Below are positions 282 through 3,557 of a DNA stretch of 64,000 nucleotides, one piece after another (position 1 is the first letter of the stretch; the number at the start of each line of letters is the position of its first letter). The notes under the pieces are model-generated. The model saw only the letters and a program-made list of their open reading frames with translations. It did no database searches and was not told the origin of the DNA. Where the stretch lies: assembly GCA_903889565.1 (NCBI GenBank), contig CAISYC010000064.1, positions 1-64,000 of the forward strand. Reading direction: 5' to 3'. The position numbers were made by a program, and so were the translations under genes. This DNA comes from an uncultured beta proteobacterium (lineage in GTDB: Bacteria; Pseudomonadota; Gammaproteobacteria; Burkholderiales; SG8-41).

Positions 282-1418
282 TTACTTTTTGCTACTGGGT
301 GGCCGACTCATCAGGCCGCCAATGCCCATCATCACGCCGTTCATCAGAAACACCGCGGTTAGCCCGGTCACCGCGGCGAGTGCGCCAAACAGCGCCGGCC
401 CCGCCACGCGCATGATGTTGTTGACGGTCAATCGCAAGCCCAGCGTTTCGCCGGTGCGGCCCTCGGCGCAGTGGGCGAACATCAGCATGGTGGTGAGCGG
501 CTGGCCGCAGCCCATGCCGACACCGAAGATGAACGACACCACGGACAACAGAAAAACGCTGGTCGCCAGCGGAATCAGGAAGAAGCCGACGGCGCCGAAG
601 AAAAACGAATAGGTCAGCAAACGCAGTTCGCCGAAGCGCGAGACCAGCCGCGCCATGCCGAAACGAACGCAGAACGCCGCCGAGGCAAAGGCCGCCAACA
701 CCGAACCGATGGCGCTCGCCGATAAACCCACGGCGTGCCCGTGCAACGGCATGTAAAACTGGTAGAGATCGGTGCCGAGCTGCATCAACCCGCTGGTGAA
801 CAGCATGCCGCGCATGACCGGATCGCTGAGCGTCTCGCGCACGCTGAGACTCGCCCCCTTCGTGCGATGGCCGGCCGGCAGGTGGCGCCCCCAGGCCATC
901 AGCAGGCCCAGCGCAATCAGCGACAGCGCGGCGATGCAGAGGCAGGCGATCGCATGGCCGAAATCATCGACCGCAATGCCGCCGAACAGCGGACCGAAGA
1001 AGTTGGTTGCCGCGCCGACGAGGCTGAAGTTCGAGAAATTGTGCACCCGCTGTTCCGGCGTGCTCAAGCGCCCCACCAGTGTCTGCAGATTGACGTGGTA
1101 ACAGGCCAGCGCAAAGCCGCTCATCGCCGCCGCCACGTAGAGCACCCAGACGTAATGAAAGAAGAACGGCAGCAGCAATCCGCCACCGCCGAAGAAGGTG
1201 CTCAGCAGCAAGGGCCCGCGCGGACCGATGCGGTCGGACAAGGCCCCGACCGGCCACGACAGCAAAAGCGGGAATGCGAAGAACATCGCCGCCAGCACGC
1301 CGACCTCGGAGGCCGACGCGCCCAGATGCAGCGCGAACAGCGAGAGCACGACGCGCGCGGCGGTCATGCCGGTGAAACTCAGGAAACCGACGGCGAAGGT
1401 GAGATGCAGCGGCTTCAA
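282..1418 (-). CDS. MFS transporter
   Basis: This 378-residue protein has about 12 hydrophobic segments, the usual length and layout of a major facilitator superfamily permease in the inner membrane. The loop after the second segment carries a motif A-like sequence (LSDRIGPRGPLLL). The likely start is a TTG codon 18 bases after the selD stop, with a GGGG stretch about ten bases upstream, so it is probably cotranscribed with selD. Nothing in the sequence identifies the substrate; a drug, sugar or amino acid exporter is possible. The link to selD may be only positional. Family assignment is firm, function is not. Confidence 0.8.
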   Translation of the reverse strand: MKPLHLTFAVGFLSFTGMTAARVVLSLFALHLGASASEVGVLAAMFFAFPLLLSWPVGALSDRIGPRGPLLLSTFFGGGGLLLPFFFHYVWVLYVAAAMSGFALACYHVNLQTLVGRLSTPEQRVHNFSNFSLVGAATNFFGPLFGGIAVDDFGHAIACLCIAALSLIALGLLMAWGRHLPAGHRTKGASLSVRETLSDPVMRGMLFTSGLMQLGTDLYQFYMPLHGHAVGLSASAIGSVLAAFASAAFCVRFGMARLVSRFGELRLLTYSFFFGAVGFFLIPLATSVFLLSVVSFIFGVGMGCGQPLTTMLMFAHCAEGRTGETLGLRLTVNNIMRVAGPALFGALAAVTGLTAVFLMNGVMMGIGGLMSRPPSSKK

Positions 1419-1436: not shown

Positions 1437-2495
1437 TCAGCCGACGTGAATCGCGGGTTCGCCCGCCGACAGCGTGCCGATCTCGGCCGCCTGCTTGAAG
1501 CCGCCGGCGCGAAACGTTTCGAGCACCGCCGGCACCGTCGCGCGATCGCAGGCCACCAGCAGACCGCCGGCCGTCTGCGGATCACACAGCAGTTTGCGCT
1601 GCCATTCCGGAAAGCCCTCAGGCAAAACGGTGTGCGACCCGACGCTTGCCCAGTTGCGCTCGGAGGCACCCGTAATGAAACCGGCTTGCGCCAGATGCAG
1701 GGCCGCCGAAAGCACCGGCACGTTGGCGTACTGCAGATCAGCGCGCAGTTTGGAACCGCGGCAGATCTCATGCAGATGGCCGAGCAGGCCGAAGCCGGTG
1801 ACGTCGGTCATCGCATGTACGCCAGGCATGGCGGCCAGCGCGATGCCCGGCGTATTGAGTTTGGTCGTCGCGTCGATCATCTGTTCATAGGCCTTCGCGC
1901 GCAGCTCGCCCTTCTTCAAGGCGGCACTCATGACGCCGACGCCGATGCCCTTGCCGAGGATCAATACGTCGCCGGCCTGCGCGCGGTCGTTGCGCTTGAT
2001 GCGCGACGGATGCACGAGTCCGATGGCAACCAGACCGTAGATCGGTTCCGGATTGTCGATCGAATGACCGCCGGCGATCGGAATGCCGGCTTGCGCGCAC
2101 ACCGCATTGCCGCCGGCGAGGATCTGCTGCGCCGCCTCGACCGGCAGCCTGCCCAGCGGCATGCCGAGCAGCGCGAGCGCGAAAATCGGCGTGCCGCCCA
2201 TCGCGTAGACATCCGAGATTGCATTGGTCGCGGCGATGCGGCCGAAATCGTACGGGTCATCGACGATCGGCAAAAAGAAATCCGTCGTCGCAACCAGCGC
2301 CTGTTCATCGTTCAGACGATACACCGCCGCATCGTCGCTCGACTCGGTGCCGACCAACAGATTCGGATACGCGTTCAACAACGGCGTCTTCGACAGCAAT
2401 TCCCCCAGCAACGCTGGCGGTAGTTTGCAGCCTCATCCGCCGCCGTGTGAGAATGCGGTCAGTTTGATTTTTTGCTGGTCTATTGGTTGATTCAT
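1437..2495 (-). CDS. selD: Selenophosphate synthetase SelD, selenocysteine-containing (UGA at codon 21)
   Basis: SelD makes selenophosphate from selenide and ATP, the selenium donor for Sec-tRNA and for 2-selenouridine in tRNA. The conserved body (NLLVG, DDAAVY, TTDFFLPIVDDP, GRIAATNAISD, GGHSIDNPEP, MTDVTGFGLLGH, LLCDPQTAGG) is unmistakable. Reading upstream in the same frame from ATG 2495 gives an N-terminus ending HGGG, then TGA at 2435-2433, then GCKLPP. That is exactly the SelD active-site loop G-(C/U)-G-C-K. I therefore read TGA as selenocysteine 21, giving 352 residues, the normal SelD length. Starting after the TGA (TTG 2411, 324 residues) would remove the catalytic loop. A bSECIS-like hairpin follows the TGA. 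Its start lies 12 bases from that of divergent selU. Confidence 0.93.
2405..2417 (-). promoter_or_regulatory. Candidate bSECIS hairpin in selD mRNA
   Basis: Fifteen bases after the UGA the minus strand reads CCAGC-GTT-GCTGG: five perfect base pairs closing a three-base loop that begins with G. Two more C-G pairs are possible below a G-G mismatch. Loop size, a G in the first two loop positions and a distance of about 20 bases from UGA to the loop all match the published bacterial SECIS consensus, the signal recognised by SelB. It lies within the coding sequence, as bacterial SECIS elements do. Confidence 0.65.
2433..2435 (-). other. In-frame UGA, selenocysteine codon of selD
   Basis: TGA on the minus strand sits between GGA and GGC-TGC-AAA, at the position of catalytic Cys17 of E. 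coli SelD (motif GCGCK). Coding similarity is continuous on both sides and the frame is unbroken. Recoding is a better explanation than a nonsense mutation or sequencing error. Confidence 0.9.
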
Positions 2496-2507
2496 CGAGG
2501 TTTTTCT

Positions 2508-3557
2508 TTGCGCTACAACGAACCTGTGACCGTAGCACAACTCGCCCGGTTTGACGAGATTATCGATGTGCGTTCCGAGGCGGAGTTCGCGCTCGATCAC
2601 ATCCCCGGCGCGATCAACTGCCCGGTGCTCAACAACGAAGAACGAATCCGCGTCGGCACGCTGTACACGCAGGTCTCGCCGTTCGAAGCGAAGAAAGTCG
2701 GCGCCGCGCTGGTCAGCCGCAACATCGCGCGTCATCTCGAAGAAAACCTGGCGCAGCGCCCGCGCAACTGGAAGCCGCTGATCTATTGCTGGCGCGGCGG
2801 CACGCGCAGCGCGGCAATGGCCGCGGTGCTGCAGCAAATCGGCTGGCGCGCCAACCGGCTTGAAGGCGGTTACAAGACCTATCGCAGCACGGTGCTGGCG
2901 GATCTCAAGGCGATGCCGCAACGCTTCGACTGGCGCGTCGTCTGCGGTCTCACCGGCGGCGGCAAGAGCCGCTTGTTGCGTGCGCTCGAAACACAGGGCG
3001 CGCAGGTGCTCGATCTCGAAGCGCTGGCCGCGCATCGCGGCTCGGTGCTCGGCAACCTGCCCGGCGCACCGCAGCCTTCGCAGAAAATGTTCGACAGCCG
3101 GGTGTGGGATGGCTTGAGAAAATTCGATCCACGGCGGCCGGTGTTCGTCGAATCTGAAAGCCGGAAAATCGGCGTCCTGCGCACGCCCGAAACGCTGATC
3201 GCGGCAATGTGGGAGGCGCGCTGCATCCGGCTCGAAGCGGCGGTGCCGCTGCGCGTGTCGATGCTGCTGCGCGAATATGCGCACTTTGCAATCGATACCG
3301 CCGCGCTCGGCGGTCAGCTCGACCGTCTGGTTGAACTGCACGGTCACGAGCGCATTGCTTCATGGAAGGCGATGGCGGCGGCCGGCGACGGCGACACCCT
3401 CGTGCGCGAACTGCTGGAACTGCACTACGACCCCGCCTATGCGCGCTCCATTCTCACGCACTACAAAAATCTCGCTACTGCCGCGACGCTGACGGTGATG
3501 GCGGACAGCGAAGAAGATTTCGCGCGACTGGCCACAGCCTGCATCGCGCAGGGGTAG
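2508..3557 (+). CDS. selU: tRNA 2-selenouridine synthase SelU/MnmH
   Basis: SelU replaces sulfur of 2-thiouridine at tRNA wobble position 34 by selenium, using selenophosphate from SelD and a geranylated intermediate. The protein has an N-terminal rhodanese domain (IIDVRSEAEF, HIPGAIN) with the catalytic cysteine in CWRGGTRS (about residue 94) and a C-terminal P-loop domain with GLTGGGKS (about 137-144). The family's LEALAAHRGSVLG signature follows. I chose TTG 2508 because GAGG lies seven bases upstream; an earlier TTG at 2472 would add 12 residues overlapping the selD start. With TTG 2508 the protein has 349 residues, close to E. coli YbbB. It is divergent from selD, its substrate supplier. 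Confidence 0.93.
   Translation: MRYNEPVTVAQLARFDEIIDVRSEAEFALDHIPGAINCPVLNNEERIRVGTLYTQVSPFEAKKVGAALVSRNIARHLEENLAQRPRNWKPLIYCWRGGTRSAAMAAVLQQIGWRANRLEGGYKTYRSTVLADLKAMPQRFDWRVVCGLTGGGKSRLLRALETQGAQVLDLEALAAHRGSVLGNLPGAPQPSQKMFDSRVWDGLRKFDPRRPVFVESESRKIGVLRTPETLIAAMWEARCIRLEAAVPLRVSMLLREYAHFAIDTAALGGQLDRLVELHGHERIASWKAMAAAGDGDTLVRELLELHYDPAYARSILTHYKNLATAATLTVMADSEEDFARLATACIAQG

Follow-up and report, generated by a model that had tools for sequence, protein, structure and literature searches.

Does the TGA at codon 21 of a betaproteobacterial selD specify selenocysteine (Sec), or does it end or disable the gene? The question arises from a gene for selenophosphate synthetase (SelD, selenide, water dikinase) near one end of the window, by which we mean the whole 64,000-nucleotide stretch analysed here (contig CAISYC010000064.1 of an uncultured beta proteobacterium, assembly GCA_903889565.1). 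A preliminary description had proposed that this SelD is a selenoprotein, with an in-frame UGA in place of the catalytic Cys and a hairpin resembling a bacterial SECIS element (bSECIS) behind it. We examined the frame, the hairpin, the genes for Sec synthesis and insertion in the same genome, and related SelD genes. The features are collected in Table 1.

Table 1. Features of the selD region and of the Sec-related genes. Positions without a prefix are those of the window; prefixed positions lie elsewhere in its genome (G000).
Feature	Position	Strand	Remarks
MFS transporter gene	285-1418	-	immediately follows selD, in frame with it; all matches fall below curated cut-offs
selD, selenophosphate synthetase (selenide, water dikinase)	1437..2495	-	352 residues, Sec at residue 21; translated with TGA = U
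selD terminal stop TGA	1439-1437	-	end of the 352-residue frame
bSECIS-type stem-loop	2405..2417	-	CCAGC 2417-2413, loop GUU 2412-2410, GCUGG 2409-2405
In-frame UGA read as Sec codon	2433..2435	-	codon 21, active-site loop HGGG-U-GCK
selD start codon ATG	2493..2495	-	most upstream in-frame ATG before the TGA
mnmH (selU, ybbB), tRNA 2-selenouridine synthase	2526..3557	+	NF008752, 500.2 bits, cut-off 266
UGSC gene with in-frame UGA	G000:C59:31586-32110 (in L047)		PF24696, 81.4 bits, cut-off 25; about 3 kb from selC
tRNA-Sec (selC)	C59:35128-35218		75.5 bits
Thioredoxin-reductase-like flavoprotein gene	L047:8272-9177	-	Pyr_redox_2, 135.7 bits; between selB and selC
selB	C59:36321-38207		432 bits
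selA	C59:38959-40314		599.5 bits
Formate dehydrogenase alpha subunit with in-frame TGA	L161, G000:C36:54859-55635		context RVUHGPT, hairpin GGCCA-GTC-TGGCC

The selD frame runs through an in-frame UGA

Translation through TGA 2435-2433 joined HGGG to GCKLPP and thereby confirmed the frame given in the preliminary description. The product of the frame from ATG 2495, which had been said to have the normal length of the family, matched the NCBIfam SelD equivalogs NF002098 (517.6 bits, cut-off 299) and TIGR00476 (429.6 bits, cut-off 125) over their full length, and the Pfam domains AIRS and AIRS_C both exceeded their cut-offs. PDB entry 3u0o, presumably E. coli SelD, aligned with residues 7-319 (E 2.6e-95) and placed the TGA-coded residue in the column of the first Cys of its HGAGCGCK motif. 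The product thus has the full-length match over curated cut-offs and the loop Cys or Sec followed by G-C-K (here HGGG-U-GCK) that define a SelD. The list of open reading frames, in which UGA counts as a stop, opened this frame at TTG 2411, just where an ordinary gene caller had been predicted to begin; annotation of this kind would lose the catalytic loop of SelD, which the corrected frame restores.

We take ATG 2495 to be a sound choice of start, since in 39 of the 54 Sec genes described below the same choice, the most upstream in-frame ATG among the 34 codons scanned before the TGA, likewise places Sec at residue 21. A search within 2300-3000 found no sigma-70-type promoter. The terminal TGA was also considered as a second Sec codon and rejected: no hairpin conforming to the bSECIS rules (see below) lies behind it, its position is the usual end of the family, and the second in-frame stop is TAA in genomes G007, G019 and G026.

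Related SelD genes carry either TGA or a Cys codon at the same place

We took 130 SelD loci and read the codon-21 place in 129 of them, L147 being excluded as the motif filter gave no reading; the SelD of G046, which is in two fragments, was left out. In this sample, which includes the best 80 of at least 572 confirmed loci and leans to close relatives, the codon was TGA in 54 genes and Cys (TGC or TGT) in 75, with no third residue. The place of the window's TGA is thus one where relatives can have Cys, and the sequence is conserved on both sides, as expected of a selenoprotein gene. PMC4561486 reports Sec in 19% of the SelD genes found in its prokaryotic reference set, with the position identical in every case. 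Sec-containing SelD proteins (SPS/SEPHS2) of bacteria and eukaryotes resemble that of the window in family, in the position of Sec in the loop and in having a stem-loop behind it, the window's differing only in its lineage and in the exact hairpin, which in this lineage has a GUU or GGU loop on CAGC or CGGC paired with GCUG. Cys-SelD (3u0o and the 75 genes above) has its motifs in common with the window's protein but TGC or TGT instead of TGA, and does not maintain the hairpin.

The TGA could instead be a sequencing or assembly error, or a nonsense mutation in a pseudogene whose truncated product begins at TTG 2411. Although the draft assembly comprises 74 contigs and the mechanical open reading frame from TTG 2411 is long, the same TGA recurs in 54 of the 129 genes, from many assemblies, among them 35 of the sample's 36 genomes from the window's family, which answers the concern about sequencing error. 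Moreover, the residues on either side are conserved, the codons behind are unusually constrained when the gene has TGA but not when it has Cys, and a protein begun at TTG 2411 would be deprived of the loop with Sec21, Cys23 and Lys24. We consider an error or a pseudogene extremely improbable.

In a tree of 121 SelD proteins with the Sec column masked, for which no root was inferred, the distribution of Sec and Cys needed two changes; the tree was made by a quick method and leaves 32 of its 118 inner branches open, and either Sec or Cys may be the ancestral state. The selD of L056 stood beside that of G019, a member of the window's family. L056 and L066 are titled Bordetella parapertussis though they are metagenome bins, and this name looks wrong.

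Sec genes maintain the hairpin behind the UGA, Cys genes do not

The bSECIS consensus has a loop of 3-9 nt with a G in its first two positions, a stem of 4-16 bp, a spacing of 16-37 nt between UGA and loop, and an MFE of at most -7.5 (Fig. 2 legend, PMC13188914). Folding of the mRNA behind the UGA did yield a stem-loop, at the coordinates and with the 15-nt spacing from UGA to stem that had been proposed; its loop of 3 nt begins with G and lies 20 nt from the UGA, and its stem has 5 bp. The claim that it obeys the bSECIS rules holds for the extended stem, in which two outer C-G pairs prolong the helix to 2420-2402 across a G-G mismatch (-11.0 kcal/mol), and fails for the bare 5-bp stem-loop, which at -5.5 kcal/mol misses the energy limit. 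The 61-nt fold had z = -1.14. Rule-conforming stem-loops were found behind 233 of the 1779 TGA triplets on both strands of the window at -7.5 or below, and behind 543 at -5 or below. As such hairpins are this common, the selD hairpin taken alone is weak evidence and proves little, and the preliminary description gave it more weight than it can bear by itself. A search of Rfam found nothing in the window at gathering scores, nor in 2330-2520 when E values up to 5 were admitted; the hairpin is thus not represented by a curated family.

Because the folding was unconvincing and hairpins were common, we relied on the comparison of Sec with Cys genes. Since the two genome collections overlap, genes that repeated another over 300 nt were removed, eight of the 129 in all (7 Sec and 1 Cys), which left 47 Sec and 74 Cys genes. 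The four inner pairs of the hairpin were present in all 47 Sec genes, compared to 9 of the 74 Cys genes, and all five pairs in 15 Sec genes and no Cys gene. The loop of the Sec genes was GUU in 41 and GGU in 6. Codon 28 was always GCG and codon 30 always CTG, while codon 29 was TTG in 41 and GTG in 6; Leu29 was thus TTG in 41 of 41 cases, though these genes use CTG and CTC more often for Leu. When synonymous diversity was measured per window of four codons, the five hairpin windows were the lowest of all 306 in the Sec rows (ranks 1 to 5), against ranks 33, 37, 83, 86 and 210 of 313 in the Cys rows, indicating that the RNA sequence itself is constrained in genes with UGA at this place but not in those with Cys. 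Pair changes among the Sec genes were few (A-U to G-U in one inner pair, with a variable outermost pair), and covariation proper is small, a weak signal.

These data bear on the possibility that the hairpin is a by-product of the codons for P-A-L-L rather than a SelB site, Sec being inserted through another signal. The similar stem-loops at or below -5 kcal/mol behind 543 of the window's TGA triplets, and the inner pairs that also form in 9 Cys genes, would fit this explanation. It is nevertheless very unlikely, given that synonymous choice at the hairpin is frozen in Sec genes but free of this constraint in Cys genes, that Leu29 is invariably TTG despite the commoner alternatives, and that hairpins of the same design stand in UGSC and FdhA genes elsewhere in this genome (see below). 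The pairing of Sec with a hairpin and of Cys without one, in related genes, provides a clean natural control for bSECIS.

The genome encodes the Sec machinery

The genes for selA, selB and selC, which the preliminary description had left to be looked up, are all present in the window's genome, as expected for a genome with selenoprotein genes, and are clustered within about 5 kb, away from selD (Table 1). Their presence argues against the UGA being read as another amino acid, through a Trp or Cys code variant or suppression. Read-through would give an intact frame whatever the residue inserted, but selD itself terminates at a TGA without a rule-conforming hairpin behind it, and the relatives read had only TGA or Cys at this place; a residue other than Sec is therefore hardly credible.

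Among the 60 genomes of our sample, Sec-SelD was found in 37, namely 35 of the 36 in the window's family plus G040 and G047; no SelD was found in the thirty-sixth family genome, G035, which is 73% complete. Within these 37, selA and selB each exceeded their cut-offs in 33 and tRNA-Sec exceeded 70 bits in 33; at least one of the three was present in 36 genomes and all three in 29. The search for tRNA-Sec across the sample was run with stricter filters, and we set the 70-bit divide ourselves, where scores drop from 70.7 to 49.7 between tRNA-Sec and other tRNAs. Several of the missing genes fall at contig edges (e.g. in G002, G008, G026 and G029). In G012, which has Sec-SelD and is 91% complete, none of the three was found. 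A single missing locus would explain this absence, given the clustering in the window's genome; unless the bin misses that one locus, the result counts against the Sec reading. In the 12 sample genomes read as Cys-SelD, tRNA-Sec exceeded 70 bits in 5 and selB its cut-off in 4; Cys-SelD can thus apparently serve the Sec pathway too.

The gene for a thioredoxin-reductase-like flavoprotein lies between selB and selC in the window's genome, and gaps of at least 1 kb between these genes in many family members and in G040 suggest an insert there too; selB and selC are adjacent in G042, G044, G047, G049, G058 and G037. The last of these, a 97% complete assembly from the same order, has one UGSC match and exceeds the cut-offs for selA, selB and tRNA-Sec, but no SelD was found in it.

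mnmH adjoins selD

The gene mnmH is oriented head-to-head with selD, at a distance of 30 bp if its start is GTG 2526; this start, used here, is uncertain, the frame being open from TTG 2472. Among the Sec loci whose flank exceeded 1.1 kb, 42 of 45 had mnmH upstream and divergent, compared to 22 of 60 Cys loci, most of which had longer flanks. Given this arrangement, selenophosphate from the window's SelD is likely used for both Sec and selenouridine. The MFS gene on the other side adjoined selD at just 6 of the 43 Sec loci whose flank was long enough, and we set it aside.

UGSC genes with in-frame UGA are numerous in the window's genome and in a sister genome

A UGSC gene with an in-frame UGA lies near selC. 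Its family had 22 matches in the window's genome, 21 of them with one TGA, and 58 in the sister genome G003 (98% complete, 2% contamination), 54 of them with TGA and 3 of these also with TAG or TAA; these counts are domain matches in draft assemblies, and two adjoining G003 matches on C7 look like one gene. In the window's genome the UGA stood in a U-G-x-C motif in 20 of the 21 cases, the remaining one having U-G-T-S. Behind 20 of the 21, L156/L194 being the exception, lay a hairpin that obeyed the rules at -7.5 or below. We read 15 of the 58 places in G003, the other 43 being known from the match table alone, and all 15 had both U-G-x-C and a hairpin conforming to the rules at -7.5 or below. 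Over both genomes, 35 of the 36 places read had the hairpin, and 19 shared an identical perfect stem, GTCGTGGA/TCCACGAC, with GTG or GTA as the loop. With SelD and a formate dehydrogenase alpha subunit that also has an in-frame TGA and a hairpin, the 21 UGSC genes bring the predicted selenoprotein genes seen in the window's genome to 23 in this partial survey of its selenoproteome.

UGSC matches were found in 28 of the 41 genomes searched: all 25 members of the window's family in the set, G040, G047 and G037. All 27 Sec-SelD genomes searched had them, and none was found in the five Cys-SelD genomes searched (G042, G043, G044, G045 and G049). Since few lineages were sampled, this link between UGSC and Sec-SelD may reflect shared descent. 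PMC13188914 gives 57 and 63 genes for the largest bacterial selenoproteomes and describes the most enriched organisms as predominantly anaerobic; G003, with its 54 TGA-containing UGSC matches, comes close to those numbers. The window's betaproteobacterium appears unusually rich in selenoproteins, and we found no paper in the open-licence literature naming a UGSC expansion in betaproteobacteria.

A probably self-dependent SelD

The frame, the conserved UGA, the hairpin with its conservation confined to Sec genes, and selA, selB, selC and mnmH are all directly seen. We infer from them Sec insertion, SelD catalysis and a feedback loop, and conclude with a probability of roughly 0.97 that the window's selD is a true selenoprotein gene whose UGA at codon 21 would be decoded through SelB and the downstream stem-loop. 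On meeting this UGA, the ribosome would be served by SelB with GTP and Sec-tRNA(Sec), bound to the stem-loop that starts 15 nt downstream and whose GUU loop begins with G; delivery of Sec would give full-length SelD with Sec in the active-site loop. This enzyme is predicted to make selenophosphate from selenide and ATP. SelA would use the selenophosphate to charge tRNA-Sec for SelD itself, the Sec formate dehydrogenase and the many UGSC-family proteins, and MnmH would use it to form selenouridine in tRNA.

No second SelD was found in the window's genome, its other two matches being partial and 27-29% identical. SelD therefore seems to be needed for its own synthesis, and the positive-feedback dependence put forward in the preliminary description is a sound inference. 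The idea is already in print: PMC1794560 states that Sec decoding may be retained for the sake of SelD, an enzyme that supports both itself and the synthesis of selenouridine.

Sec-SelD is itself of a well-known kind, and the genomic context, with its UGSC expansion, is the less ordinary part. We see about even odds that this environmental betaproteobacterial family has a selenoproteome dominated by the UGSC expansion, with a demand for Sec that would leave the cell reliant on a self-dependent Sec-SelD. In such cells, dozens of paralogues of an uncharacterised family would, it seems, take Sec, all of them fed by one SelD that itself depends on Sec.
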